This document shows, piece by piece, positions 14,538 to 63,412 of a stretch of DNA of 64,000 nucleotides. Every line of letters starts with the position of its first letter. Positions within the stretch are counted from its first letter, which is position 1. The DNA lies in NCBI RefSeq assembly GCF_000190755.2, contig NZ_JH109152.1:1156167-1220166 (forward strand). The letters run 5' to 3'. The notes below the pieces were generated by a model. The model was not told the origin of the DNA and did not search any database. It saw nothing but the letters and a program-made list of their open reading frames with translations. The translations under genes were made by a program, and so were the position numbers. This stretch comes from Methylobacter tundripaludum SV96 (GTDB lineage: Bacteria; Pseudomonadota; Gammaproteobacteria; Methylococcales; Methylomonadaceae).

Positions 14538-14780
14538 TTATAAATTTATAAGCCGACACCATGATTTTAAGCTGGTGCCGGACTGAACAGGTTGGCGTAC
14601 CGGATTCAAGAAACCGGCCAGTCTTGCGACTGCCTGCCCAGCCCGACATAATGAAGCGCTGAATGCTGCGCACAAAAAAACCGCATAAAGCGGCGGTGCG
14701 CCTTGAAATTTCGGAACGCCAATCCCGGCCTTGCTGTTGCAGGGCGTGGAAAGCATAAGCCCGATAGTAATGGAGGTCAA
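14538..14780 (-). CDS. Possible Ash-like protein (P4 type)
   Basis: This 80-codon frame with a TTG start contains SKAGIGVPKFQGAPP and later QAVARLAGFLNPVRQPVQSG, which resemble the GFLNPV-type motif of the short Ash proteins of P4-like satellites. The codon use and the unusual start leave doubt, and it could be a conserved non-coding stretch read as protein. Its place among other P4-type genes supports the call. Confidence 0.35.
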   Translation of the reverse strand: MTSITIGLMLSTPCNSKAGIGVPKFQGAPPLYAVFLCAAFSASLCRAGQAVARLAGFLNPVRQPVQSGTSLKSWCRLINL

Positions 14781-46334: not shown

Positions 46335-46693
46335 AACGCTGGCTCTCCGTCATGCGGCAATGCTGAAAGGTTGACTTGAACGCTGCCGTTTTCAATGCGG
46401 ATCGCATAAACGGGGATTTTCACGGTTTCATCTTCCAGACAAACGCCGGTTTGCAGGTTAAAGTGTTGTTTGTATAAGGGCGAAGCGACCACCGGTTGCC
46501 CGCCAATATCGCCGATTAAGCCGCGCGACAGGACATTGGCGTTGCCGAACGGGTCGTAATTGCCAACCGCATAAACTTTTGCATCGGGCTCCGGCATCCA
46601 GAAAATCGCCACTTGCTCCCCTTCAACCAGTGCGCAAACCCCCGAATCAGGCTGCAAGTCATCAACACTGCAAACATCTATCCACTGAACCAT
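46331..46693 (-). CDS. nirD: Nitrite reductase small subunit
   Basis: This 120-residue protein has the Rieske-like fold of NirD (VDDLQPDSGVCALVEGEQVA, then AVGNYDPFGNANVLSRGLIG and VVASPLYKQHFNLQTGVCLE). It lacks the Cys-His ligand pairs of a true Rieske protein, as expected for NirD. It partners NirB in NADH-dependent nitrite reduction to ammonium in the cytoplasm. Its start overlaps the nirB stop. Confidence 0.93.
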   Translation of the reverse strand: MVQWIDVCSVDDLQPDSGVCALVEGEQVAIFWMPEPDAKVYAVGNYDPFGNANVLSRGLIGDIGGQPVVASPLYKQHFNLQTGVCLEDETVKIPVYAIRIENGSVQVNLSALPHDGEPAL

Positions 46694-49230
46694 TAGGCTA
46701 CCTCCACCAATTTAAAATGCTTGCGCTCGTTTTCATCGGCAGGACGAATCTGGCCGCGTTCTTCAACAAAGATGACATTATCATCGGACTGGTCGCTGTT
46801 GATGAAATGCCGGAAGCGTTTGAGCTTGGCTTCATCTTCAATCGCGGCTTTCCACTCGCATTGATAAGTATCGATCACATACTGCATTTGCTGCTCCAGT
46901 TGATCGCACAGTCCCAGCTTGTCTTCAAGCACTACCGATTTCAGGTAATCCAGACCGCCTTCCATGTTTTCCATCCACACCGAGGTGCGTTGCAGACGGT
47001 CGGCGGTGCGCACATAAAAACTCAAGAAGCGGTCGATGTATTTAATCAGGGTTTCCTTGTCCAAACCGGTGGCGAATAAATCCGCATGGCGCGGTTTCAT
47101 GCCGCCGTTTCCGCAGACATACAGGTTCCAGCCGTTTTCGGTGGCAATAATGCCGACATCTTTGCCCTGCGCTTCGGCGCATTCTCGGGTACAGCCGGAC
47201 ACCGCGAATTTGATTTTATGCGGTGAACGCAAGCCTTTGTAGCGGTTTTCCAATTCTATCGCCAGCCCCACGCTGTCATCGACGCCGTAACGACACCAGG
47301 TGCTGCCGACGCAGGATTTAACCGTACGTAAGGACTTTCCGTAAGCGTGCCCCGATTCAAAACCGGCATCGATCAATTCTTTCCAGATATGCGGCAATTG
47401 ATCGACCCGCGCGCCGAACATATCCACGCGCTGCCCGCCGGTGATTTTGGTATAGAGTTTGTATTTTTTACCGACCTGCCCTAACGCAATCAGCATGTCG
47501 GGGCTGATTTCGCCGCCGGTGATGCGCGGCACCACCGAATAAGTGCCGTCTTTTTGCATGTTGGCTAAAAAGGTGTCGTTGGTGTCCTGTAGCCCCAAAT
47601 GATCTTTTTCCAGGATATGCTCATTCCACTGCGAAGCCAAAATATTGCCGACAGTCGGCCTGCAAATTTCACAGCCTTTGCCCTTGCCGTGTTTATGCAG
47701 CAAATCGGCAAAGGTTTTGATTTGTTCGACCCGAATCAGGTTGTGGAGATCCTGCCGGGTATAGGCAAAATGCTCGCAAAGATCGGTATTGACTTCAAAT
47801 CCCTGTTTCGACAATTCCGAATCCAGAACCGATTTAAGCAACGCAGAACAGCCGCCGCAACCGGTCGCGGCTTTGGTTTCCGCTTTTAACGCGCCCATCG
47901 TCATGCAGCCGCCCTCAATCGCCGAGCAAATCGTGCCTTTGGTCACGTCGTAGCAGGAGCAGATTTGCGCCGAAGCCGGCAACGCATCCGGGCCCAAACC
48001 GACCGACTCGTCGGAGCGGTGCGGTAAAATCAGCGCATCGGGATTCTCCGGCAGTTCGATACCGTTCAGGCAATATTGCAATAAGGTTCCGTAACCCGAC
48101 GCATCGCCGACCAGCACCGCGCCCAGCAATTGTTTTTTATCCTGACTGACCACCAGGCGTTTATAAACTTCGCTTGCACCATTTTGGTAAGTGTAAACCA
48201 TCGCGCCTTGGGTTTTGGCATGAGCGTCACCGATACTGGCGACATCAACACCCATCAGTTTCAACTTGGTGCTCATATCCGCGCCGGTAAAGCTGGCGGC
48301 ATCGCCCGCCAAATCGGCCACCACCGTGCGCGCCATCGCATACCCCGGAGCGACCAATCCGTAAATCATGCCATTCCACAACGCGCACTCGCCAATCGCA
48401 TAAATGCTAGGATCGGAGGTGCGGCATTGGTTATCGATGACGATGCCGCCGCGCTGGCCGACTTCCAGCCCGGAAGCTCTGGCAAGATCGTCTCGCGGGC
48501 GAATCCCTGCCGAAAACAGCACGATGTCGGTTTCCAGCTCTTCGCCGTCGGCAAAACACATTTTATTAATGCATTGTTCGCCATCGGTAATGATGCTGGT
48601 GTTTTTGCCGGTATGCACGATGACGCCTAAATTCTCAATTTTCAGCCTTAACATCGCACCGCCCGCGTCATCGAGCTGCACCGCCATCAAGCGCGGAGCG
48701 AACTCGACCACATGGGTTTCCAAGCCTAGATCCATTAACGCCTTGGCCGCCTCCAAACCCAACAAGCCACCGCCGACGACGGTGCCGACCTTGCCTGTTT
48801 TGGCAGCGGCGGCAATGGCTTCAAGATCTTCAATCGTCCGATAAACCAGACATTGCGCGCGATCATGCCCGGGAACGGGCGGCACGAATGGATACGAACC
48901 TGTCGCCAAAACCAACTTGTCGTAAGCTATGGTCAAGCCTTTTGCCGAAGTGACGGTTTTGTCGGCTCTGTTAATCGTTGCGACTTTGTCGCCTAGATGA
49001 ATGGTAATGCCATGCTGTTCAAAAAAGCCGTCTTCGACTAAAGACAGTTCTTGCGCCGTTGTGCCGGTAAAAAATGCCGATAAATGCACCCGGTCATAGG
49101 CTGCTCTGGGTTCTTCGCAGAAAGTAATAATTTCATAGTGTTCTTTAATGGGGCTTTCAACCAGACTTGCCAAAAAAGACTGTCCGACCATGCCATTACC
49201 AATGACGACTAATGTTTGTTTGACGCTCAT
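46693..49230 (-). CDS. nirB: Nitrite reductase [NAD(P)H] large subunit
   Basis: ATG 49230 (MSVKQTLVVIGNGMVGQSFL) is chosen, with GAGG 7 nt upstream; the longer frame would extend past the sigma-54 promoter. The 845-residue protein has an FAD/NADH oxidoreductase part (VVIGNGMVG, GTVVGGGLLGLEAAKALMDL), a BFD-like [2Fe-2S] part (ICSCYDVTKG, TGCGGCSALL), and the siroheme/[4Fe-4S] reductase part (SCVGSTWCRYG, AVSGCTRECAEAQGKDVGI). It reduces nitrite to ammonium for assimilation. The operon nirB-nirD-phzF is driven by a sigma-54 promoter. Confidence 0.96.
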   Translation of the reverse strand: MSVKQTLVVIGNGMVGQSFLASLVESPIKEHYEIITFCEEPRAAYDRVHLSAFFTGTTAQELSLVEDGFFEQHGITIHLGDKVATINRADKTVTSAKGLTIAYDKLVLATGSYPFVPPVPGHDRAQCLVYRTIEDLEAIAAAAKTGKVGTVVGGGLLGLEAAKALMDLGLETHVVEFAPRLMAVQLDDAGGAMLRLKIENLGVIVHTGKNTSIITDGEQCINKMCFADGEELETDIVLFSAGIRPRDDLARASGLEVGQRGGIVIDNQCRTSDPSIYAIGECALWNGMIYGLVAPGYAMARTVVADLAGDAASFTGADMSTKLKLMGVDVASIGDAHAKTQGAMVYTYQNGASEVYKRLVVSQDKKQLLGAVLVGDASGYGTLLQYCLNGIELPENPDALILPHRSDESVGLGPDALPASAQICSCYDVTKGTICSAIEGGCMTMGALKAETKAATGCGGCSALLKSVLDSELSKQGFEVNTDLCEHFAYTRQDLHNLIRVEQIKTFADLLHKHGKGKGCEICRPTVGNILASQWNEHILEKDHLGLQDTNDTFLANMQKDGTYSVVPRITGGEISPDMLIALGQVGKKYKLYTKITGGQRVDMFGARVDQLPHIWKELIDAGFESGHAYGKSLRTVKSCVGSTWCRYGVDDSVGLAIELENRYKGLRSPHKIKFAVSGCTRECAEAQGKDVGIIATENGWNLYVCGNGGMKPRHADLFATGLDKETLIKYIDRFLSFYVRTADRLQRTSVWMENMEGGLDYLKSVVLEDKLGLCDQLEQQMQYVIDTYQCEWKAAIEDEAKLKRFRHFINSDQSDDNVIFVEERGQIRPADENERKHFKLVEVA

Positions 49231-49270
49231 ATACAACCTCGATAACGATGTTTCCTGTTTGGAGTTGTAG

Positions 49271-49286
49271 AGCAATGCCTGTGCCA
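49271..49286 (-). promoter_or_regulatory. Sigma-54 promoter of nirBD
   Basis: On the minus strand TGGCAC (49281-49286), five nt, then TTGCT (49271-49275), the -24/-12 consensus. The predicted start is about 30 nt before the nirB ATG. A GCACC...GGCTC element (about 49350-49375) could be a weak NtrC site. Confidence 0.78.
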
Positions 49287-49570
49287 CAATAAACAAGCCA
49301 GTGATTTTAATTACTTATTGAACCATCAGCCTGAAAAATAAAGTACTGCAATGAGCCAAGATGGTGCGTGTAAACAAGTAACGCTCATTATAAGTGCAAC
49401 AACAATTACATTTTCATTGCCGCAGGCGCGTTTACTAGCGACCCGACACGCCTCCGCATTATTCGGCACAACTATAGAAATCAATGGGACTTTATTTATT
49501 GGGCTGGCGACTTAGGCGATTAATACAATCACCGTCAATAAATGGCGTAGTTTGTGCTAATCGTTTGAGA

Positions 49571-50146
49571 ATGAACACCTTAAATATATTACTTATTGAA
49601 GATGAAACGACAGATCAGTTATTAGAAAAGACACTGATTGCTAAAGGCTATTCAGTCACCAACACGGTACCCTCTGAAACAAACATTCCATCCTTAGCGA
49701 TGACCAACAAAACCGACCTTGTTATTTTTAATATCGACAGTCCCAAAAAGTATTTTCCGCACATCCATTACCTCAACCGGAACCAGCCCCTCCCCATCAT
49801 TATCTTTGCAGCTGACGATACCTCCGACACCATCAAGCAAATCGTTAAGGCCGGAGTCAGCGCTTATGTTGTCAACGGTTTGGAAACCAGCCGCATTAAC
49901 AGCATTATCAATATCGCCGTGGCGAGATTTAAGGAACAACAACGGCTTACCAATGAGTTGGAAAAAACGAAATCCAGGCTTGAAGAAAGGAAACTGATCG
50001 ACCGGGCAAAAGGCATCTTAATCAAAACCCGCGGCTTTACCGAAGACGATGCTTATCACACCCTGAGAAAACTGGCGATGGATCGCAATATAGCGATCGG
50101 CGAAATGGCGAAAAACATTATCGCCATGGCTGAACTGCTTAAGTAG
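49571..50146 (+). CDS. ANTAR-domain antiterminator with receiver-like domain (NasT type)
   Basis: ATG 49571 (MNTLNILLIEDETTDQLLEK) is chosen; the frame upstream lacks family similarity. The 191-residue protein has a receiver-like domain with the acidic pair (EDE) and an Asp in IFNIDSPKK, but the usual Lys near the end reads AYVVNG. A coiled-coil linker follows. The C-terminal ANTAR domain is RKLIDRAKGILIKTRGFTED and AYHTLRKLAMDRNIAIGEMA. ANTAR proteins bind RNA hairpins with hexaloops and prevent termination. The gene is divergent from nirBD, which fits a nitrate/nitrite regulator. No NasS sensor gene is next to it. Its C-terminus is copied as a relic at 57978. Confidence 0.87.
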   Translation: MNTLNILLIEDETTDQLLEKTLIAKGYSVTNTVPSETNIPSLAMTNKTDLVIFNIDSPKKYFPHIHYLNRNQPLPIIIFAADDTSDTIKQIVKAGVSAYVVNGLETSRINSIINIAVARFKEQQRLTNELEKTKSRLEERKLIDRAKGILIKTRGFTEDDAYHTLRKLAMDRNIAIGEMAKNIIAMAELLK

Positions 50147-52013: not shown

Positions 52014-52496
52014 TTAATGCACATTGGGCATAATCAGGTTATTAAAGACCGCACCGTTATTATTCAAATCCAAACCTTTTAAGTTACTAACCGCTATATT
52101 AATATCGGTAACAGTTCTAATAACCTGGTTGTCAACGTTATTCTGAATAACCGAACCCAACCCCGTCATTGCCAACTCCGGAGCTTGATTCAGGGTTCCG
52201 TTCTGAAACAGTGATGCATTCTCCGGTAATTGAAAAAATGAGGAAGAAACTACCGAACCGTTCAACGAAGTGATTCTATCCAAACTAAAATCGATGTTCG
52301 TTCCGTTTGGCAGCGCAAACCCGCCTCTTAGTTGATCCAACTCACTGTCGGACGCACGATCCCAATTATCAAACCGTTGAGCGGCAATGCTTGACATCTC
52401 ATCCGCTGATACCTGACAGGCGAAACCGCCCAAAACCGCTATCCAGAGTGCAACCTTCATGAGTTTTCGGTAGACGTTAAATTTATATGTTTTCAT
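52014..52496 (-). CDS. Secreted FapE-like subunit candidate with a double-Gly motif
   Basis: ATG 52496 (MKTYKFNVYRKLMKVALWIA) has GGAG 8 nt upstream. A signal peptide is followed by ASDSELDQLRGGFALPNGTN. This matches the form of double-glycine processing sites (ELD-x-L-x-GG), and the region is followed by DFSLDRITSLNG. The end has TGLGSVIQNNVDNQVIRTVT, like the other secreted proteins of this locus. A C39-like protease is encoded 18 nt upstream. It may be a matrix subunit or the protease's substrate. Both roles are inferred. Confidence 0.6.
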   Translation of the reverse strand: MKTYKFNVYRKLMKVALWIAVLGGFACQVSADEMSSIAAQRFDNWDRASDSELDQLRGGFALPNGTNIDFSLDRITSLNGSVVSSSFFQLPENASLFQNGTLNQAPELAMTGLGSVIQNNVDNQVIRTVTDINIAVSNLKGLDLNNNGAVFNNLIMPNVH

Positions 52497-52514
52497 CTTA
52501 AACACTCCGCTTAA

Positions 52515-53207
52515 TTAAAAATCCCAACGTCCGGGTTGCAACATATTGAATGCCCCTAAACTGGCTCGATCGGCGGCGGAACCCAGCGGCGCCTTGACCC
52601 GAAGCGCCCACTCTTGCTGATCCTGAAAATGCCCTGCCGCGACATCCTGTTTATCATGGATTAAAAATAAAATACGGTTCCCCCACATTTCTTCAAACTC
52701 ATCGCGGGGTATTACCTTTATGCCTACAGCGGGATCTCCCACCAGAACTTCCTGGTCACTAACGCCTTTAATAATAACGAAATGCAAGTAACCGTTATTA
52801 TTGATAATGGTGATTGCCGGAACATTGGCTGTAACCAATTGATCCAATTTGATCTTGAAACCATCGGAGCGGTAGCCGTGCCTTTCCAGATAAAGTTTTA
52901 TATCCAGTAACGAAAAACCCTGTTTTTGAATCTTCTGCCGATCACCGTTTTGATACATATCAACAAATACGCTTTGCTCGTCTACCGCATCGTCATAATG
53001 GTAGGTCAGCAAGCTGGCCAAAGTGGCCGAACCGCAACTGAAGTCGTACTGTTGCTTGTATACGGTCTTGAATCGCCGTTCTAAAAAACTGGTCACGGGA
53101 ACGTCATAGTTTCCGGCGCCCGCAACGCCATTAAAATTAATATCGCCCGCATTGCTACACAATGTGGGTAGCATGAGAAGAACACATTTAACAAAAAATC
53201 GCATCAT
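52515..53207 (-). CDS. Periplasmic C39-like peptidase (FapD-like)
   Basis: This 230-residue protein has a signal peptide (MMRFFVKCVLLMLPTLCSNA). The C39 core follows: the catalytic Cys in QQYDFSCGSATLASLLTYHY, the His in NNGYLHFVIIKGVSDQEVLV and the Asp in VLVGDPAVG. C39 enzymes cleave after Gly-Gly in secreted peptides, usually inside ABC exporters, but this one is free and periplasmic, like FapD of the Pseudomonas amyloid system. It lies between two genes for secreted proteins. Confidence 0.8.
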   Translation of the reverse strand: MMRFFVKCVLLMLPTLCSNAGDINFNGVAGAGNYDVPVTSFLERRFKTVYKQQYDFSCGSATLASLLTYHYDDAVDEQSVFVDMYQNGDRQKIQKQGFSLLDIKLYLERHGYRSDGFKIKLDQLVTANVPAITIINNNGYLHFVIIKGVSDQEVLVGDPAVGIKVIPRDEFEEMWGNRILFLIHDKQDVAAGHFQDQQEWALRVKAPLGSAADRASLGAFNMLQPGRWDF

Positions 53208-53234
53208 GTCGCACTTCCACTAAATAAAAATTTA

Positions 53235-53597
53235 TTAAGGGGCGATCGTTACATTCACGATAGTCGAATCCTGAATGATGACGTTGTTACCGCTGTTTTG
53301 AATAACACTGGTAAAACCGCTTGCCTGTGTAAATGAACCGCCGTCAATTATGTTGGCGCCATTCACATTATTGTTTGCCTGGTTGTCCGCCAGCGTAGCG
53401 CGTACGTTCATGTTATTAAGGGTAAATATATCGACTCCTTCGCGCCCCCGCGCATTATCCAGCTCTTCCAATAACGCTGTTTCGGTCGAAGAAAAAAGTA
53501 ACTTGTCCTGATTTTGATCAGCTCCGGCTTGCGCCGCCTGACTTTGCGCAATAACTACAAGTAGCGTTAAAACGCAGTTCTTTACAATAGTTCCCAT
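53235..53597 (-). CDS. Small secreted protein of the amyloid-like locus
   Basis: This 120-residue protein has a signal peptide (MGTIVKNCVLTLLVVIAQSQ, cleaved near AAQA). The rest is Asn/Gly-rich and ends GFTSVIQNSGNNVIIQDSTI, then VNVTIAP. The QNSGNN segment is like the strand-turn units of amyloid subunits. It probably is a minor subunit or nucleator, by position and by the shared motif. No catalytic residues are present. Confidence 0.55.
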   Translation of the reverse strand: MGTIVKNCVLTLLVVIAQSQAAQAGADQNQDKLLFSSTETALLEELDNARGREGVDIFTLNNMNVRATLADNQANNNVNGANIIDGGSFTQASGFTSVIQNSGNNVIIQDSTIVNVTIAP

Positions 53598-53700
53598 AGC
53601 ACCCTCCTCACATATTTGACGATATGCCAGTTAAGAACCGGTGAGCGATTGCTCACTCACCGGCAAACTGCAGTTTATTAACCAATACCGTTAATAAACC

Positions 53701-54765
53701 TTAAGGTGCAACAGTTGCAGTGCCTTGGGTAACCGTTACAGTGCCGTCAACCAATACCGATTGTTGCGCTAAACCGCTACCTGAGTTTTGAAAGGTTTGG
53801 GTAATACCGGCGTTGCCGACAATCGAATGATCGATATGATTGCCGAATGGTATAGAAGCCAATACCGTAGTATCGGATGGTAAACCGGCAGGGCTACCAG
53901 TGACTGAACCGTACAAATCTTGATTGTTGGCTTTGTAAGTGCTGGTGGCGTTACCGATACCGGCAACTGCATTGCCATTGCCATGAGCTTTCAACTCGAA
54001 ATATTGCGAGGTGGCGTTTCCGACATTGGCTGATGCTGAACCGTCGCCCTTGGCGTCTGATTTGTTGTTAGTAGCCGTAGCGGTTCCTGTATTGGATGAT
54101 GCTGAACCATCTTTCGCATCTGATTTATTGTTAGTAGCAGTAGCGGTTCCTGTATCGGATGACGCTGAACCATCTTTTGCATATGATTTATTGTTAGTAG
54201 AAGTGGCATCTCCAGTACCGTTTACAGCAGCAGCTTGATCCTGAGCCTTTACTTTGCCGTCGGCACCAGTACTGTTATCGGTTTGAGTGACAGTTTTGGT
54301 AGTAGAAGCATTGCCAGTGCCATTGACAGCCGCGCTGTTATCTTTAGCTTTGGCATAGCCATCTTGACCACTACTGCTATCAGTTTTTGTGATAGTTGTA
54401 GTCTTGGTATCAGTAGTACTTGCAGAACCGCTACCGATTGAAGAAGCACCTTGATCGTCAACCTTCACTTTGCTATCGGAACCAATACTGTTATCAGTTT
54501 TTGTGAGCGTTGTAGTGTCGGTATTAGTTTTGGTGCTGGTGTTATTACTATCCACCGTTTTTACGCTGTTGTTTGTATCGGTGAGGGTTTTAGTATTGGT
54601 ATCAGTAATAGCACCGATTGTAGAAGTACCGCCCCCCTCAATTGAAGAGTTTCCTTGACCTAAGCTTGCTGCTACAGTTATTGGGTCCTGTGCCCATGCA
54701 CTAGAAGCTACGCCCAGTGCAAGAAGAATACTTGCAGTTAATATTTTTTTGTTAAATTGTTTCAT
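53701..54765 (-). CDS. Major amyloid-like subunit candidate, Thr/Asp/Asn repeats
   Basis: ATG 54765 has a GGAG site 8 nt upstream and starts MKQFNKKILTASILLALGVA, a signal peptide cleaved after AWA. The 354-residue protein has low-complexity repeats: about eight DNS/TKT-type units (TKTDNSIGSDSKVKVDDQGA, then TQTDNSTGADGKVKAQDQAA) and three copies of ATNNKSDAKDGSASSNTGTA. It ends GITQTFQNSGSGLAQQSVLV and TVTVTQ. Major Fap subunits have imperfect repeats with Gln/Asn and linkers, so this first gene of the operon is a plausible equivalent, though its sequence is not FapC-like in detail. Confidence 0.58.
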   Translation of the reverse strand: MKQFNKKILTASILLALGVASSAWAQDPITVAASLGQGNSSIEGGGTSTIGAITDTNTKTLTDTNNSVKTVDSNNTSTKTNTDTTTLTKTDNSIGSDSKVKVDDQGASSIGSGSASTTDTKTTTITKTDSSSGQDGYAKAKDNSAAVNGTGNASTTKTVTQTDNSTGADGKVKAQDQAAAVNGTGDATSTNNKSYAKDGSASSDTGTATATNNKSDAKDGSASSNTGTATATNNKSDAKGDGSASANVGNATSQYFELKAHGNGNAVAGIGNATSTYKANNQDLYGSVTGSPAGLPSDTTVLASIPFGNHIDHSIVGNAGITQTFQNSGSGLAQQSVLVDGTVTVTQGTATVAP

Positions 54766-54855
54766 TGTTATTACTCCATGAATATATTTAAATATAATCA
54801 GATGTCGTTCACTAAAAATATCTGATGCAATTGCAACAACCGCCTCTCTCGCCAT

Positions 54856-56395: not shown

Positions 56396-57364
56396 TCAAC
56401 CCGCTTTCTGCTTATCGCGGTTATTCAGCAGCATCCCCTCCGCCTTGCTGCCCAAGTAAACATAAATACCCAGCGACACCAGCAGCGACGCCACCGCAAT
56501 AATGATCCAGACCGCTTCAATGATATGTTCGCCATCGCCCTTTAATGCGAATTTAAAAATCATCAACAGCGACTCAATGGACACTGCGATAATAATCACC
56601 GCAATAAAACGGGTAATCGTGCGCCGGGTCGAGCTATGCCTGAGCACATCCTTGTACAACAGCACTTCTTCTTCCAGCGTTGTCTTGCCCAGATCAAAAA
56701 TAGCCAGGCTCAAGGTCAGGTAAATAACCACGCCCAACGGCATCTCCAGCCGCTTTTCCGGCGTCATCATCGCATATATCACATCCAAACACTCAACCCC
56801 GGCCGCATAAAGCAACATCAACGCGACCGTAAACAAACCGAGCACGATCAGCGTATACATGGCTTTAAAATAGGGTTCGAAATGAATGCGCCTGCTATCG
56901 CCGGTCAATATCGCCAGCATGGAGCTAAGATCAATATCCAGCACAACGACACCCTTTATGGTGCTGTCATCATTGTTAACTTTCATGCTGGCGGACAGGC
57001 ATAGCTCCCGTCTGACGCTGGACAAATAAGGCTCAGTTACCGCTACCCCGTCAGCCTTCATCGCCGCCAAATAGTAGGGCCGGTTACTACGGTCCGCATC
57101 CAGGCCGATTTTAGGATGATGCTTAAACTGACTGCCCGGCACGTTCATGCAGATTTGCTTGCCTTTTGCGTCAAGCAGGTAAAGAAGACTGACAAACGGG
57201 TAATAAGAACACAGGGAATTGAGAAACTCGGCAAGTTCCTCATCACTTTTCTCGAACATTTTGTCATCGGCAAAACAACTCAAAATGGAAGAAAGCAGGT
57301 TATGAATAGCGACGCGATGTTCCTCGTATTTCTCAATAACATTGATATGACTCATTTTAGACAT
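56396..57364 (-). CDS. PDC/Cache-type sensor protein without output domain
   Basis: The 322-residue protein starts MSKMSHINVIEKYEEHRVAI, followed by a PDC-like sensor part (FVSLLYLLDAKGKQICMNVP, then RPYYLAAMKADGVAVTEPYL and GVVVLDIDLSSML). Four membrane helices follow (about residues 170-310, including YTLIVLGLFTVALMLLYAAG). It has no kinase, GGDEF or MCP output domain, so it may signal through a partner. A broken copy of its start lies at 60393-60488. It is divergent from the EAL gene and shares the regulatory region. Confidence 0.7.
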   Translation of the reverse strand: MSKMSHINVIEKYEEHRVAIHNLLSSILSCFADDKMFEKSDEELAEFLNSLCSYYPFVSLLYLLDAKGKQICMNVPGSQFKHHPKIGLDADRSNRPYYLAAMKADGVAVTEPYLSSVRRELCLSASMKVNNDDSTIKGVVVLDIDLSSMLAILTGDSRRIHFEPYFKAMYTLIVLGLFTVALMLLYAAGVECLDVIYAMMTPEKRLEMPLGVVIYLTLSLAIFDLGKTTLEEEVLLYKDVLRHSSTRRTITRFIAVIIIAVSIESLLMIFKFALKGDGEHIIEAVWIIIAVASLLVSLGIYVYLGSKAEGMLLNNRDKQKAG

Positions 57365-57481
57365 GCTTTCGATCCCGAGAATTCATGATAACTCTCCAGG
57401 CTCCAGCAGGTTTTGTGCCAGACGATCAAAACAGTCAACAACCCTTCCTGTGCGCAGAAATCACACACCAAAACAACCTAA

Positions 57482-57509
57482 TTGGTGCAATGCACAGGGA
57501 ATTTGCACC
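57482..57509. promoter_or_regulatory. NtrC-like half-sites, module A
   Basis: ttggtgcaatgcac followed by tgcacc at 57504-57509 gives inverted GGTGCA/TGCACC half-sites like NtrC enhancer sites. Similar blocks lie at 60686-60712 and 63870-63896. Confidence 0.55.
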
Positions 57510-57617
57510 TATTAAGTGCGTTATTTTAAGGGCTCCGACCACTCTTGTTCTACAACAGGTCGCTTATAGCACTTATATTTGTTAAATAATTAACATAAAT
57601 AACCCATATAGAAATTT

Positions 57618-57632
57618 TGGCACAACGATTGC
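57618..57632 (+). promoter_or_regulatory. Sigma-54 promoter, module A
   Basis: TGGCAC (57618-57623), five nt, TTGC (57629-57632), an exact -24/-12 match, about 425 nt before the EAL gene. Confidence 0.85.
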
Positions 57633-57643
57633 TTTTAACACTG

Positions 57644-57758
57644 CAGAGACTCCAATGGCGGAGCATTAAAGAAATATTGGTTTAATGGCGAACTCTATTG
57701 ACAAAGGCGTCTATCAGACTGAATGCATTGAGCATTCCGCTGAGAGACGCTTTTTTTT
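57644..57758 (+). ncRNA. Leader RNA A: dual ANTAR-type hexaloops plus terminator
   Basis: Hairpin P1 has stem ctcc/ggag with loop AATGGC (57650-57663). Hairpin P2 has stem ggttt/gaact with loop AATGGC (57679-57694). Both loops have A at position 1 and G at position 4, the features read by ANTAR proteins. A two-storey terminator follows (ggcgtct/agacgc with inner gaatgc/gcattc, then eight T, to 57758). The start is inferred from the promoter. P2 does not overlap the terminator by eye but ends 8-12 nt before it. Confidence 0.75.
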
Positions 57759-57977
57759 GCCTGATCCAGGCCGCTATTTCCATGAGTTAAATCACTTTAT
57801 GTATTTGCCGATATTTTGATATTTGCGCATCAAACATAAACAGGGCTATTTCTGAGACACCTTAGAACTGAACAACAGCAGTTTCTTGCGGGCATGTAAA
57901 AAACGAATTAAGACGAATTTGAACAATGGAAACGGGTAGATCAACTAAAGACGACATTTACCCTCCAAAAAACCGGG
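57759..57977. other. Spacer between leader A terminator and the ANTAR relic
   Basis: No gene is visible. It probably contains the eroded body of an ANTAR-domain gene, since its last 25 codons remain at 57978. Confidence 0.4.
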
Positions 57978-58061
57978 ATGAACAGCACTCTAGTAATCGG
58001 GGAAATGGCAAAAAATGTTATTTCCATGGCTGAACTCATTAAACAAACATTTCTATTATGA
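57978..58061 (+). pseudogene. ANTAR-gene relic (C-terminal end)
   Basis: A 27-codon frame reads MNSTLVIGEMAKNVISMAEL and IKQTFLL. The part GEMAKNVISMAELIK matches the end of the ANTAR protein at 49571 (GEMAKNIIAMAELLK). Its stop overlaps the EAL start (ATGA). The rest of an ANTAR gene has been lost, so an antiterminator gene once lay directly upstream of the EAL gene in one operon. Confidence 0.75.
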
Positions 58062-59332
58062 ATACGGAAAAAAAACTATTCTCTTATTTTGAACCTATTG
58101 TTAGCACTGTCGGCGGCTCTATCAGCAGCCATGAAGCATTAGCCAAACAAAACAAACCTATGAATCAAGAAAAGATACTATTCCCCTATTTCCAACCTAT
58201 TATTGGCGCTGCCAGCGGCACTATCATCGGTTACGAAGCATTAGCCCGGCAACATGACGCCAATGGCCGGGTTATTTCGGCCGGTGAATTATTCTCTTCG
58301 CCGGACATTGCCCCCGACCAACTGATAGCCTGGGATCGCATGGTTCGACGTCAAGCTCTGGAGCAATTCAGTCGATCAAATTACAAGGGATATTTAACCA
58401 TCAATATTTCAGCCGCCTGGATCGACCACCTCGCTGACTTTACTTCATTGCCGACACTGCTCATGCTGGACGAGTTTAATGTTGACAGAAACCGCGTCAT
58501 TATTGAAATAACCGAATCAAAAGGCGACTTGGATAAACTTGTTGAAATTGCCGACCTGTATCGCCAACACGGCTTAAAAATAGCGATTGATGATTTTGGC
58601 GCCGGGTTTTCTCAGCTGGAAAGAGTCATGGCCATACAACCCGACATCATCAAACTGGACATGCAATTATTCCAGAATGCCGCCAAAGGCGGCATAGCCA
58701 GCGATGTGGTGCATTTAATATCCCGCCTGGCGAAACGCACCGGTTGCCGTATCGTTTGCGAGGGAGTGGAAACCATTGACGACTTCCATTTCGGCTTAAG
58801 TTGCGGCGCTCAATATATGCAGGGCTATCTGTTTTCACCCGCCACAGCGGAATTTAAAGAACCGCTGCATTATCAAAAACAAATCAGTTCACTGAGAAAG
58901 ACCTTCCTGAAAAAAACCTTGGCCAAAGAAGAACACAAGATACAGTTTATCGCCAATATTAAGGGCTTGATCGAATGCCTGAAAATAGCGCTGGAAACCG
59001 ACTTCAACCTCAAAAAATTATCCGCGCACCCGTTTGAAACGAGCGGCATTTTACGGTTCTATTTATGCAATAACGAAGGCGATCAGATCTCATCGAATTT
59101 TAATTTTGCCGATGGCAACTGGTTCGAGGACCCGACTCAAATCGGCTTTAACTGGGCATGGCGACCTTATTTTTATCAATTGCTGGCGCTTGAGTCGGCA
59201 AAAGACAGTTACCGCCTGGTAACTTCTGAACGCTATCGGGATTTTAATAACGATATGCTGTGCAAAACCCTATCGCTCAGACTGGACGACGAGCGTATTT
59301 TATTAATCGATATTGCTGCCGAATGGCTATGA
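58058..59332 (+). CDS. EAL-domain c-di-GMP phosphodiesterase with YkuI-like C-terminal domain
   Basis: The 424-residue protein has an internal duplication at the start: MNTEKKLFSYFEPIVSTVGG and MNQEKILFPYFQPIIGAASG, so an alternative start lies at 58160. The EAL domain keeps its active-site residues: GYEALARQ, NISAAW, EITESKG, the loop IDDFGAGFSQLERV, IIKLDMQLF, CEGVETIDDF and QGYLFSP. The C-terminal domain (about residues 290-424) has HPFETSGILRFYLCNNEGDQ, like the Cache-type YkuI C-terminal domain. It should hydrolyse c-di-GMP in the cytoplasm. Control by sigma-54 and leader A is inferred. Confidence 0.87.
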   Translation: MNTEKKLFSYFEPIVSTVGGSISSHEALAKQNKPMNQEKILFPYFQPIIGAASGTIIGYEALARQHDANGRVISAGELFSSPDIAPDQLIAWDRMVRRQALEQFSRSNYKGYLTINISAAWIDHLADFTSLPTLLMLDEFNVDRNRVIIEITESKGDLDKLVEIADLYRQHGLKIAIDDFGAGFSQLERVMAIQPDIIKLDMQLFQNAAKGGIASDVVHLISRLAKRTGCRIVCEGVETIDDFHFGLSCGAQYMQGYLFSPATAEFKEPLHYQKQISSLRKTFLKKTLAKEEHKIQFIANIKGLIECLKIALETDFNLKKLSAHPFETSGILRFYLCNNEGDQISSNFNFADGNWFEDPTQIGFNWAWRPYFYQLLALESAKDSYRLVTSERYRDFNNDMLCKTLSLRLDDERILLIDIAAEWL

Positions 59333-59473: not shown

Positions 59474-60391
59474 CTAAAACAGAAAAGTGACCACCGCTTT
59501 CAACTTTCCGTCATCGATGACGGGCATTGCAAGCATGGAATTCAAGCGTCCTTCTACCGGCACAACTTCCGCGTTATTTCTGATGGCCGGAACGCCGGTT
59601 AGCCATACCCTGCCCAATAGTCCCTCGCCTTTGCGCACGGAGATGGTTTCAAACATTTCTGCCAGCTCATCATTTTGTTTACTGTATCCCGACTGACACA
59701 CCAGCCGTTGACCGCGTTCATCCGGCACCCAGATCTGTATGCGTTTGGCAATCGGCGTCGCTTTAGCCGACAGAAATGTCATGATATAAACCTGGTTTGC
59801 AACCACCGAAACCGGAATACCCAGCGCCGTCGTTATCCCGGCTTTTCTGGCATCCGAACTTCTGATAAAAGCGGAGGCTTGCCCCAGATCCTCTATGAGT
59901 ACGGGCATGCCTGTTGCCCATACCTGTCCGGGTAAACCGGAACCCTTGATGAAGCTCGTTCCTCTGGAGATGTTTTCAAATTCATCCAACGTACCGTAAT
60001 ATCCGTCAATAACCGCCAGCTCAGTATTTTTCTCCGCGCTGTTGCTCCATACTTCTATCGCGCCGGCATGATGCTGATCGTCCCCACACAAAAAAACCAC
60101 CACGGCCATTATAAATTCACCTGAAAAAACAGGTATCGCAATACCGCAGGTTAACCCTGCTTTTTTGGCTGATTTTGTCCGCTTGAAATAAGAGTGGTCA
60201 AATTCGGTTAACACGACAGGATGACCGGCTGCCCATGCTTTACCGGGCAAACCTTCATCATAAGCGAAGGATTCCTTTTCACTGGCAACCCGGAATTCAT
60301 GCAAAGAACCATACAGTCCGGCGCTAAAGCCCAAGCGGGTACGATCTTTTGTGGGTATCCATATTTCCGTTACCTTAATAAATGTTTTCAT
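59474..60391 (-). CDS. Tandem GAF-domain protein, no output domain
   Basis: This 305-residue protein has two complete GAF-like units and part of a third: FAYDEGLPGKAWAAGHPVVL, FIKGSGLPGQVWATGMPVLI and VRKGEGLLGRVWLTGVPAIR. Each carries the LPGxVW motif of one GAF subtype. It has no membrane segments or output domain, so it probably senses a small ligand in the cytoplasm and signals through a partner. It lies downstream of the PDC-gene relic (MSKISH) with a 1-nt gap and is divergent from the chemoreceptor gene. Confidence 0.78.
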   Translation of the reverse strand: MKTFIKVTEIWIPTKDRTRLGFSAGLYGSLHEFRVASEKESFAYDEGLPGKAWAAGHPVVLTEFDHSYFKRTKSAKKAGLTCGIAIPVFSGEFIMAVVVFLCGDDQHHAGAIEVWSNSAEKNTELAVIDGYYGTLDEFENISRGTSFIKGSGLPGQVWATGMPVLIEDLGQASAFIRSSDARKAGITTALGIPVSVVANQVYIMTFLSAKATPIAKRIQIWVPDERGQRLVCQSGYSKQNDELAEMFETISVRKGEGLLGRVWLTGVPAIRNNAEVVPVEGRLNSMLAMPVIDDGKLKAVVTFLF

Positions 60392-60392
60392 A

Positions 60393-60488
60393 TCAAGCCG
60401 TTTGCTTTATGGAAGAAAGCCGCTTATGAGTCGCCGATCGATGTTCTTCATATTTTTCAAAAACATTAAGATGGCTTATCTTGGACAT
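60393..60488 (-). pseudogene. PDC-sensor gene relic (N-terminal end)
   Basis: A 31-residue frame reads MSKISHLNVFEKYEEHRSAT, matching the start of the PDC sensor (MSKMSHINVIEKYEEHRVAI). After HKRLSSIKQTA it stops 1 nt before the GAF gene start. A sensor gene was replaced by the GAF gene, leaving its first codons, perhaps as a translation leader. Confidence 0.72.
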
Positions 60489-60685: not shown

Positions 60686-60712
60686 TTGGTGCACCACATC
60701 GAAAGATTGCAC
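60686..60712. promoter_or_regulatory. NtrC-like half-sites, module B
   Basis: ttggtgcacca at 60686-60696 and tgcac at 60708-60712. The block corresponds to that of module A and lies about 115-140 nt before the promoter. Confidence 0.5.
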
Positions 60713-60824
60713 TCATTCGATGCATTGTTCTCGAAACCCTCATTATCCTTGCGATATGAAAGGTAATCGGTAACCAATTGTAATTATTAAATAAGATCTA
60801 TGGAAAAATATCATATAACCATTT

Positions 60825-60839
60825 TGGCACAACGCTTGC
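60825..60839 (+). promoter_or_regulatory. Sigma-54 promoter, module B
   Basis: TGGCAC (60825-60830), five nt, TTGC (60836-60839), again an exact -24/-12 match, about 330 nt before the chemoreceptor gene. Confidence 0.85.
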
Positions 60840-60850
60840 GTTAAACACGA

Positions 60851-60963
60851 CAGAAGCCCTGATAGCGGGGCACTGAAAGATCTTGGTTTAACGGCGAACC
60901 ATATTGACAAAGGCGTCTAACAGACTGAATGCAGTAGCATTCCGCTTGAAGACGCTTTTTTTT
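60851..60963 (+). ncRNA. Leader RNA B: ANTAR-type hexaloop plus terminator
   Basis: P2 has stem tggttt/gaacca with loop AACGGC (60884-60901), with A1 and G4. P1 (stem gccct/ggggc, loop GATAGC, 60856-60871) lacks the A1/G4 pattern and is less certain. The terminator (aggcgtct/agacgc, inner gaatgc/gcattc, eight T) ends at 60963. The leader has the same order and spacing as leader A. Confidence 0.7.
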
Positions 60964-61171
60964 GTCCTTCTTTAAGGATAGAAAAACCTAACAATGGATT
61001 AATAAATGTCCGCAGCAATTTAAGCTCCCATTACATTGCAAGCATTCGATACATTCTGGATTTAATAGCGTCGGCACATCAATCGTAACGATCGGCCGGA
61101 ACATGGATCTAATCGAAAATATTTACTATTTAACAATCCCAATCATAACTATAGAAACAGGAGATTGCATC

Positions 61172-63412
61172 ATGCTAAATAACTTGAAAAACTCCGGACA
61201 GTTAACTATCAAAATGCGTTTTACGATCATTGTAAGTACGTTGGTCATCGGTTTTTCACTGTTCGGTTTCGCAACATTCAAGGCCATGAATACACTGAAT
61301 GTTAATGGCCCCATTTATCAACGCATAGTTCAGGGTAAAGATATTATTGCCGATGTCCTGCCTCCGCCTGAATACATTATCGAATCCTATCTGGTGACGC
61401 TGCAATTAACCCAAACCACCGACCCGGCTGAAATCAGCACCTTGGTGACGCACTTTCAATCGCTAAAAACGGAATACGAGTCCCGTCATCGTTATTGGAC
61501 AGGCCAATCTTTGGAACAGGGACTCCAGGTTTCTTTACTTGAACGTTCTTACCGGGCGGCGCAAACCTTTTACAATGAAGCCGGCCAGCGGTTTTTGCCG
61601 AGCATCCAGGCGGGCGACCGTGACGGCTCACTCGCCAGCCTCCTGAAAATGCGTCGCGCTTATGAAGAGCATCGTAATGCTATTAATGACGTAGTGAAAC
61701 TTACAACAGCCCGCAACCTGGAAGATGAGGCACACGCGCAAAATACAATACACGGGTACGAAATCCTCCTGGTCGGCATTTTTATCTTCAGCGTTGCTAT
61801 GGCAGTCGTGTTGACCGTACTGATCAGTCGCAGCATCATACGATCGCTCAAGACCGTCCAACAGGTTGCAGGAGCCATTGCCAATGGAGACCTGCACTCC
61901 AGCATTGACACGCATCAAAAAGATGAAATCGGGGATCTGTTGCGCTCCATGAAAACCATGCAGGATTCGATCAACTTCTTCGTTACCGGCCTGGACGATA
62001 TGGCGCAAAAGCACGCACAGGGCTGGGTCAAAGAGCAACTCGACAGTTCAACATTCTCCGGTATCTACGGCAAGATAGCCTATGAAGTTAATGACTTGAT
62101 TCAATCGCGTATCCTGATCAACAGAAAGCTGATCGGCATCGTCTCCCAATATTCAAAAGGTGATTTCTCTCTCGACATGGACGTTTTGCCGGGAGAAACC
62201 ATTGTCATTACCGAGATTATGGACAATGCCAAAAAGACCTTTCTCGCCGTTAACAACGAAATCAAAATGCTTGCGGAAGCAGGCGCTCAAGGCGATTTCT
62301 CAAAGCGTAGCGATCCGGATAAATTTGAGTTCATGTTCAAGGGGATTTTGGCCAATCTCAATCACCTGATGGAAACCTGCGATGTCGGCTTCAACGACGT
62401 GCTGCATGTCGCCGATGCCCTGGCTCAAGGCGACTTGACCCAAACCATCGACAAAGACTATCCCGGCACCTTTGGCGAAGTGATTGTCGGCATGAATAGT
62501 ATTGTAGGAAACCTCAAAGGCCTGGTCGGCAATATCAAGGATTCCACCGACAACATTCACACAGCGGCTAACGAAATCGCCACCGGTAACAATGACTTAT
62601 CGCATCGCACCGAGGAGCAAGCCGCCAGCCTGGAACAAACCGCCGCCAGCATGGAAGAGCTGACCTCCGCCGTGCAGCATAATGCCGTCAACGCCCAACA
62701 GGCCAACCGGCTCGCCGTTGACGCATCCGACATCGCGGGCAAAGGCGTTGAAGTGGTCGGCCAGGTCGTCATGACCATGAATGAAATCAATGAATCGTCA
62801 CGTAAAATCGGGGACATTATCTCGGTGATCGACGATATTGCTTTCCAGACCAACATTCTTGCCCTCAACGCTGCGGTAGAAGCCGCCCGCGCCGGTGAAC
62901 AAGGCCGGGGCTTTGCCGTTGTTGCCGTAGAAGTGCGCAACCTCGCGCAACGCGCCGCGACGGCTGCCGGGGAAATTAAAGAGCTGATTAGCGATTCGGT
63001 CGATAAAGTCTCGGACGGCAGTAAGCTGGTTGCCCAAGCCGGGCTGACCATGGAAGACATTGTCACCTCCATCCGCGGCGTTACCGACATGATGTCTGAA
63101 ATCACCGCCGCCTCCGCCGAACAAAGCGCCGGCATCGAACAAGTCAATCAGGCCATCACCCAAATGGATGACGTAACCCAACAAAATGCCGCTCTGGTAG
63201 AACAAGCCGCTGCGGCCGCGGAATTGCTGGAAGAACAAGCGCAAAACCTGGTGATCACAGTGAGCAGTTTTAAAGTGGTAGATAGCTCGGGCACGTCAAA
63301 CAGCTACTTTCATTTACCGCCTGCGAAAAAAGAAATAGCGCTACCCAGAGCAGTTGCCGGTAGGAAGTTACAGTTACAACTTGCTGGTAATGATGAGTGG
63401 GATGAGTTTTAA
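61172..63412 (+). CDS. Methyl-accepting chemotaxis protein
   Basis: ATG 61172 with AGGAG upstream is chosen; the earlier frame start has no family similarity. The 746-residue protein has two membrane helices ([20 protein letters not shown] and [20 protein letters not shown]), a periplasmic sensor part between them, a HAMP region, a second HAMP-like region ([20 protein letters not shown]) and a signalling tip with [20 protein letters not shown] and [20 protein letters not shown]. It ends NDEWDEF, like the C-terminal tether for CheR/CheB. It should be methylated and couple to CheA. It lies downstream of leader B. Confidence 0.92.

Follow-up and report, generated by a model that had tools for sequence, protein, structure and literature searches.

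Leaders read by ANTAR proteins have been described mainly on genes of nitrogen metabolism, and the locus considered here raises the question of why one should stand in front of a gene for a c-di-GMP phosphodiesterase in Methylobacter, a genus of methane-eating bacteria (methanotrophs). By the window I mean the whole stretch of 64,000 nt that was analyzed, part of the genome referred to below as G000. The reading I favor, with a probability of roughly 80%, is that sigma-54 together with nitrate-responsive ANTAR antitermination governs the predicted phosphodiesterase, by means of a leader copied from the neighboring nitrate-transport operon. If true, nitrogen supply would be tied to the decision to swim or to settle, and a genuine copy at the EAL gene, along with a sister copy at a chemoreceptor gene, would extend the nitrate antitermination circuit to the control of methanotroph lifestyle.

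The leader and the gene behind it

An NtrC-like enhancer, TTGGTGCA-N14-TGCAC-N7-GTGCG (57482-57520, on the + strand like all elements of this leader), begins 136 nt 5' of a sigma-54 promoter, TGGCACAACGATTGC (57618-57632). The consensus for such promoters is GG-N10-GC, or TGGCAC-N5-TTGC, and the sequence TGGCAC-AACGA-TTGC contains the GG-N10-GC pattern, bearing out the promoter claimed in an earlier note on this DNA; transcription would be expected to start near 57644. The element is identical in two related genomes (G012 and G021), and the same 18 promoter bases recur upstream of nrtA and of a gene that by eye is nif-like. Three other sites in the genome that fit TGGCAY-RN4-TTGCTTT precede what appear by eye to be nif-like or iron-sulphur-like genes, and they have no box upstream. 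The box (TGCAC-N7-RTGCR) is conserved and resembles the NtrC consensus; the sigma-54 activator at the EAL leader is probably NtrC. Upstream of a sigma-54-like site, the box occurs in 37 distinct sequences, at a distance of 102-180 nt (mostly 124-139 nt), within a list that was selected for having both features and that leaves box-less sites uncounted. The combined pattern gives 38 matches in 23 genomes of the genus, vs 1 for a reversed control, and some of these matches precede genes other than nitrogen genes. One of them (G000:C1:525090), the third match in this genome, was rejected as marking a known nitrogen gene, there being no open reading frame of 90 amino acids in the inspected stretch.

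Downstream of the promoter lie the two hairpins with identical AATGGC loops (A at position 1, G at position 4) that had been recognized before: P1, CTCC[AATGGC]GGAG (57650-57663), whose homologous helix covaries in 36 leaders, and P2, GGTTT[AATGGC]GAACT (57679-57694), whose homologous helix covaries as well. The earlier count stands for these two but overlooked a third A1/G4 hexaloop, P3, GAC[AAAGGC]GTC (57700-57711). P3 sits between P2 and an intrinsic terminator, AAAGGCGTCT...AGACGCTTTTTTTT (57703-57758), which has the T-tail previously noted, eight T long, and a minimum free energy of -26.1 kcal/mol. P3 overlaps the 5' arm of the terminator, and the two are mutually exclusive because the same bases are used by both.

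An ANTAR target is defined, in the accessible text of PMC3369931, as a pair of hairpins, each with a stem of 3 bp or more and a hexaloop carrying A1 and G4, and P1, P2, and P3 all have these properties. The dual-hexaloop leaders read by EutV (eutP and others), as presented in the accessible text of PMC8934654, likewise have A1 and G4, a short linker, and a last hexaloop that overlaps the terminator stem. The leaders considered here differ in having three hexaloops, in serving nitrate genes, and in their use of sigma-54. The linker between P2 and P3 (5 nt) falls within the eut-like range of 5-12 nt and that between P1 and P2 (14-15 nt) outside it, at the length that harmed induction by EutV (PMC3369931, same text).

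How readily might such an arrangement arise by chance? In 40 simulations of 64 kb each, generated by a first-order Markov model, pairs of hexaloops arose at a rate of 2.65 per 64 kb; over the whole set of 40, a pair had identical loops in one instance and was followed by a terminator in four. The window contains two hexaloop pairs, one of which has identical loops and a terminator. The predicted fold of the leader has a z of -2.87 vs shuffles, 2 of 200 of which are equally stable; P2 is missing from both predicted MFE folds, and P1 is formed in one and not in the other. Rfam at gathering thresholds gave no match at the leader, and a simple terminator scan with a loop limit of 8 did not list its terminator.

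The elements span about 140 nt, as had been claimed, but they are not all within 140 nt of the c-di-GMP hydrolase gene: 300 nt lie between the end of the terminator and the first ATG (58058), and 402 nt between it and a second one (58160), at which the alignment of many orthologs starts. The gap contains a relic (57870-58043, +, ending ...VIGEMAKNVISMAELIK) of the 3'-terminal part of an ANTAR gene, recognized by its translation and by tblastn (37% to ANTAR residues 122-191).

The gene (58058-59332, +, with 58160 as alternative start) encodes EAL and YkuI_C domains (PF00563, E = 1.2e-46; PF10388, E = 1e-15). The nearest solved relative of the protein is YkuI (2bas, E = 1.1e-46), to which it aligns over residues 7-388 of 390, including both the EAL and the C-terminal domain (PDB 2bas/2w27). 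The two differ at DDFGAG, which is DNIGKE in YkuI, the other YahA catalytic positions being kept. E (of EAL), N, E, DD, K, E, and Q all align with residues of YahA that I take to be its catalytic positions, and since the alignment holds throughout, the protein is predicted to be an active c-di-GMP phosphodiesterase. The gene is under purifying selection (dN/dS 0.08-0.12 in eight comparisons), dS between G000 and G012 being 0.385. An apparent tandem duplication of 102 nt, imperfect, lies at its N-terminus (58058-58261; MNTEKKLFSYFEPIVS.../MNQEKILFPYFQPIIG...), and for many orthologs the alignment begins only with the second copy.

Copies of the leader and their shared structure

Thirty-six leaders preceding nrtA or nirB were found with a search model, R1, and aligned by MAFFT without structure. 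In this alignment, 97.6% of the cells of P1, P2, and P3 are paired, and two-sided changes number 35, vs 10.1 ± 4.4 in shuffled alignments (0 of 500 as high) and at most 7 in slid controls. Further pair types are not in excess of shuffles (149 of 500 as high). The covariation belongs to the nrtA/nirB homologs, the EAL rows alone being too few.

The loops are conserved at the positions expected of ANTAR targets. In the nrtA/nirB rows, the P1 loop has A1 in 35 of 36 and G4 in 35 of 36, and the P2 loop, in rows where the homologous hairpin was picked, has A1 in 26 of 27 and G4 in 27 of 27, with positions 3, 5, and 6 variable in both hairpins; by eye, P2 is not an intact hexaloop in about 8 of the 36. 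These counts come from a table that used 54 of 85 matches (excluding reverse-strand echoes and repeats of a place), with L123, whose gene is unknown, kept out of group counts. The hairpin entered in the table is the best one having a 6-nt loop and is not always the homologous one: P2 was wrongly picked in L152-L155, L161, L164, L002, L015, L147, and the EAL row of the window, and P1 in L004, L010, and L147. The raw P2 tally for nrtA/nirB was A in 30 of 33 and G in 31 of 33, from which the six wrong picks (L152-L155, L161, L164) were then removed; three further rows had no P2 pick. R1's structure does not include P3 as a hairpin; the outer pair of P3 is AU in 22 leaders, UA in 4, CG in 1, G-U in 3, and unpaired in 6, and its loop variants AACGGC, AAAGAC, and AAAGGT keep A1 and G4. 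At the place of P3 in the EAL leader of G018, both stem and loop are changed, to TAGGC[AATGGC]GCCTA.

The earlier note had proposed a covariance-model search as a check. The model used here, R2, was trained on the 36 nrtA/nirB leaders only, so that the EAL and chemoreceptor copies lie outside its training. It matches the EAL leader (57633-57728, 69.7 bits, E = 6.9e-25) and a second leader of ANTAR type (60840-60964, with hairpins and terminator at 60856-60963, +; matched at 60840-60934, 65.0 bits, E = 5.1e-23), and the third and last match listed in the window, up to an E of 10, has 11.7 bits (E = 0.062). The second leader precedes a gene for a methyl-accepting chemotaxis protein (MCP; 61103-63412, +; PF00015, E = 9.9e-55), for whose ligand domain Pfam gives nothing significant. 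It consists, on the + strand, of an NtrC-like enhancer (60686-60724, recognized from its sequence and unmatched by the gapped box pattern in the genome), a sigma-54 promoter (60825-60839), P1 with a GATAGC loop that has neither A1 nor G4 (60856-60871), P2 with loop AACGGC (60884-60901), P3 with loop AAAGGC (60906-60917), and a terminator (60909-60963).

In the whole genome, R1 and R2 recognize three leaders, those of the EAL, MCP, and nrtA genes, two further R1 matches being reverse-strand echoes. The nrtA leader (G000:C1:1220188) lies 22 nt beyond the end of the window, and the EAL leader is, as judged by sequence, its paralogue; an invariant core, CAAAG.CGTC, shared by 17 aligned leaders corresponds to P3 and the terminator arm. 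The order of the locus is nirB (-), ANTAR (+), others, EAL (+), a triple-GAF gene (-), MCP (+), and DUF2721, followed past the end of the window by nrtA (whose product matches the solved NrtA, 2g29, at E = 5.6e-55) and then, by eye, by nrtB-, nrtC-, and nitrate-type MFS transporter-like genes. The link to nitrogen that the earlier note drew has thus gained computational support, from the paralogy with the leader of the nrtA operon and from the position of the ANTAR gene beside nirB.

A relic of the start of a dCache gene (itself at 56396-57364) is found at 60408-60488 (-), upstream of the triple-GAF gene (tblastn 74%), and suggests that the regions upstream of the EAL and MCP genes stem from one segmental duplication that included the start of the divergent gene. 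The triple-GAF gene (59474-60391, -), with GAF_2 matches in three stretches, is near the EAL gene in many relatives. Its product is a candidate signal input; its resemblance to the nitrate sensor NreA is weak and falls far short of the cut-off (E = 8.2e-5, 22.4 bits vs 175), and a PDB search gave no useful match. Between the ANTAR and EAL genes are small secreted-looking proteins and a peptidase-like protein (52014-54855, -), whose homologs, in the fetched stretches of relatives, are in the same place only in G021 and G012 and elsewhere in G008.

Across the family, R1 matches at E 0.1 turn up in 83 of the 151 genomes, belonging to 21 of the 29 genera, and across the order, R2 matches at E 0.01 turn up in 129 of the 251 genomes, belonging to 28 of the 48 genera. 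Those strong family matches that were checked are mostly upstream of nrtA or nirB, many other matches being unclassified. Twenty family places were inspected, mostly the second or weaker match of a genome: 8 are before nrtA, 10 before nirB, 1 before an MFS gene resembling the gene downstream of nrtC in the present locus, and 1 before an EAL gene. Because the leaders mostly precede nrtA or nirB, it is simplest to suppose that the nitrate/nitrite leader is ancestral and the EAL copy derived. EAL and MCP copies occur in Methylobacter, plus one at a divergent EAL gene in another genus. Among EAL orthologs, 11 records not titled Methylobacter (L108-L115, L117-L119) have no leader match better than E 0.18, and the same is true of L104, L105, and L107; the ortholog in L102, which is G018, does have a match.

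The divergent case (L234, from genome G176) has a leader match at 251-428 (R1, 41.4 bits; R2, 30.2 bits) in which the places of P1 and P3 are taken by A1/G4 hexaloops and a terminator is present; there is no evident P2, and an insertion separates P1 from P3. Behind it are an EAL gene (459-2901, 29% identity to that of the window) and then a homolog of the triple-GAF gene. Known from a single genome, it may be an instance in which an EAL gene came under ANTAR control independently. In G019, what follows another leader (L144, G019:C5:282447) is the remnant of an EAL gene.

The ANTAR protein

Two genes in the genome encode an ANTAR domain, and the one beside nirB in the window (49571-50146, +) encodes a NasT-like protein, with a degenerate receiver (PF00072, 25.8 bits, below the cut-off of 30.2) joined to an ANTAR domain (PF03861, E = 8.5e-20, above its cut-off). 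Divergent from it is nirB (46693-49296, -), assigned by Pfam as nitrite reductase, and the same pair is found in many relatives. In the regions of 21 EAL orthologs (L036-L056, stretches of unequal length), a full ANTAR gene is in the same stretch as the EAL gene in 10. The protein is likely to be the trans-acting partner of the leader. Amongst the residues that contact RNA in EutV, as given in the accessible text of PMC8934654, mapping by alignment finds R142, K143, K149, E160, Y164, R168, and M172 kept and K147 replaced by R, with N173, R175, and R177 not conserved.

At the position of the phospho-acceptor Asp of canonical response regulators, the protein has Asn, as do 14 of 16 orthologs, the other 2 having Gln. 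A distant ANTAR protein in G004 retains the Asp, and a NasS-like protein adjoins it. In G000, a search for NrtA-like proteins at E 0.001 found only nrtA itself, so NasS is apparently absent. The NasS-NasT system of Paracoccus is similar in that a protein with a receiver-like and an ANTAR domain, linked to nirB/nrt genes, acts by antitermination in a leader; the present system differs in having no NasS homolog at that threshold and in the replacement of the phospho-Asp by Asn or Gln. NasS-NasT is also present in Pseudomonas and Azotobacter. In Klebsiella oxytoca, nasF and NasR combine Ntr-controlled initiation with ANTAR antitermination before nitrate-assimilation genes (PMC5424462 and PMC3369931, accessible texts), and the nrtA gene of G000 has the same design. 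Here, however, the ANTAR partner is receiver-like rather than of the NIT-domain type, the leader has three hexaloops, and copies of it also precede the EAL and MCP genes.

Does the leader depend on the protein? Orthologs were sought with the window protein as query in all 23 genomes of the genus and were found in 16 (at 66% or more); each of these 16 has an R1 match whose E is no higher than 4e-26. Six genomes have none (G002, G009, G015, G016, G017, and G022; G015 has a 24% match). A strong R1 match is present in 16 of 16 genomes with the ortholog vs 1 of 6 without it (G004 excluded; p = 2.3e-4), the genomes being non-independent, several of them incomplete, and some of the leaders having trained R1. 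G004, with its distant ANTAR protein (35%), keeps the nrtA leader. Five genomes of the genus have nrtA and no ortholog, and four of them lack the hairpin array and terminator, the fifth having damaged hairpins. In the four (G002, G009, G016, and G017) there is no R2 match and no A1/G4 hexaloop with a 4-bp stem between the sigma-54-like element and the nrtA ATG, which are 62-88 nt apart (157 nt in G000); weak other folds remain there, of -6 to -17 kcal/mol. The leader of G022 has a P1 loop that lost G4 and a broken closing pair in P2. With the covariation of the hairpins, these losses in genomes without the ortholog lend computational support to the ANTAR reading offered in the earlier note. 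For the EAL leader in particular, association with the ANTAR ortholog across genomes of the genus is not significant (p = 0.09).

What the leader may do for the EAL gene

The EAL leader is recognizable in 8 of the 18 genomes of the genus that have the EAL gene (G000, G010, G012, G013, G014, G018, G019, and G021) and unrecognizable in the other 10, of which 6 have an ANTAR ortholog. It is complete, with three hexaloops and a terminator, only in G000 and G012. The leader of G018 has three hexaloops and no T-run; that of G021 is damaged in the P1 stem, in A1 of the P2 loop, and in the terminator; copy 2 of G019, a genome whose nrtA leader is intact, has no P3 hexaloop and the C263 copy of G014 no P1 hexaloop; and in G013, P1 is the sole intact A1/G4 hexaloop. 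The terminator is absent in G010, G013, the C231 copy of G014, and copy 1 of G019, and in these terminator-less alleles P2, where kept, is near the start codon. In G019, GAACTCCTTAAAT is common to P2 and the ANTAR relic, suggesting that the sequence between them was deleted.

This decay, the sigma-54-like sites and the box often persisting where hairpins are missing or damaged, is what one would expect if the leader were a passenger, promoter and attenuator having been duplicated together and only the promoter mattering to the EAL gene. The plain paralogy with the nrtA leader fits that account too, as does the lack of a leader at EAL orthologs in records not titled Methylobacter, save the one from G018. 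I nonetheless consider it unlikely. If there were no antiterminator, the strong terminator would keep silent a gene on which purifying selection acts, and A1 and G4 are kept while other loop letters change in G018, G010, the C231 copy of G014, and G019. Moreover, between G000 and G012 the promoter, P1-P3, and the 3' arm of the terminator have 3 changes in 75 sites, all three preserving pairing in the alignment, vs 39 in 131 for the spacers (p = 3.5e-6), sets that leave aside the box, the loop of the terminator, and, beyond the terminator, both gap and relic. When the gap and relic are added, the comparison is with 62 of 315 (p = 4.6e-4), and vs the gap and relic alone (23 of 184) the conservation of the leader is marginal (p = 0.041). 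The contrast is weaker between G000 and G021, 5 of 75 vs 29 of 132 (p = 0.006) or 67 of 417 (p = 0.033).

Less probable still is that the leader acts on translation or mRNA stability rather than on termination. Alleles with the short leader, P2 just before the start codon and no terminator, would suit such a role, and putative ANTAR targets that overlap ribosome-binding sites, one of them at an MCP gene, are mentioned in the accessible text of PMC3369931, but the allele in the window has a strong terminator overlapping P3 and an EAL start 300 nt away. It is very improbable that the transcript ending at 57758 sequesters the ANTAR protein as a small RNA, like EutX or Rli55, with the EAL gene driven from another promoter: hexaloop sponges are known (EutX, in the accessible text of PMC8934654) and the terminator is separated from the ATG by the 300 nt that hold the ANTAR relic, but the paralogous leaders sit upstream of nrtA and MCP, a simple scan listed no sigma-70-like site on the + strand within 57000-58400, and a similar promoter and hairpin are found fewer than 100 nt upstream of the start of EAL in G010, G013, the C231 copy of G014, and copy 1 of G019, from which it follows that the promoter serves the EAL gene.

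Under nitrate-responsive antitermination, the favored reading, events would run as follows. Nitrogen limitation would lead NtrC, with sigma-54, to initiate transcription of the EAL leader, a step that I infer from the box and from the precedents in the accessible text of PMC5424462. By default the transcript would end at 57758. Given nitrate or nitrite, the ANTAR protein would bind the hexaloops, favoring P3 over the terminator, and RNA polymerase would read into the EAL gene. The enzyme being made, c-di-GMP would drop, alongside induction of nitrate uptake by the nrtA operon and of the chemoreceptor. The nitrate signal would have to reach the ANTAR protein by a route in which no NasS has been found and with Asn at the phospho-acceptor position. 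Within the genus the ANTAR gene, single hairpins, or the terminator have been lost naturally, which makes the model directly testable.

A connection between c-di-GMP and ANTAR antitermination has been made elsewhere: the NasT of Pseudomonas putida, once it binds c-di-GMP, has a reduced affinity for the leader (Nie et al. 2024, as reported in the accessible text of the review PMC12830290). There c-di-GMP acts on NasT, whereas here the leader would act on the gene of a phosphodiesterase, the reverse arm, and would give that reported inhibition its return. I put forward tentatively, as something that may well prove otherwise, a positive feedback loop completed by the EAL leader: an ANTAR protein held back by c-di-GMP would read into the gene of the enzyme that relieves it, falling c-di-GMP would free more ANTAR protein, and nitrate would set off a switch that reinforces itself, toward nitrate uptake, chemotaxis, and motility. 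The ANTAR protein would then serve as a sensor of both c-di-GMP and nitrate that needs neither NasS nor phosphorylation.

The leader of nrtA and nirB is an ordinary member of the known ANTAR type; its predicted use on a c-di-GMP gene is the aspect that seems new. The earlier note knew of no description of such a use, and in the literature within reach (which did not extend to supplements, preprints, and most subscription papers) no ANTAR leader before an EAL or c-di-GMP gene was found. That much of its claim holds, but the surroundings are less novel, with the inhibition of NasT by c-di-GMP already reported, as well as a putative ANTAR target at a chemoreceptor gene (legend of Figure S3, PMC3369931), which gives the MCP leader a precedent. 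The full tables of targets in that paper are supplements, and so an EAL target could be listed there.

Elsewhere in the window, at 14571-14653 (-), lies a C4 antisense RNA (Rfam RF01695, 64.4 bits), usually an element of P1/P7-type prophages.
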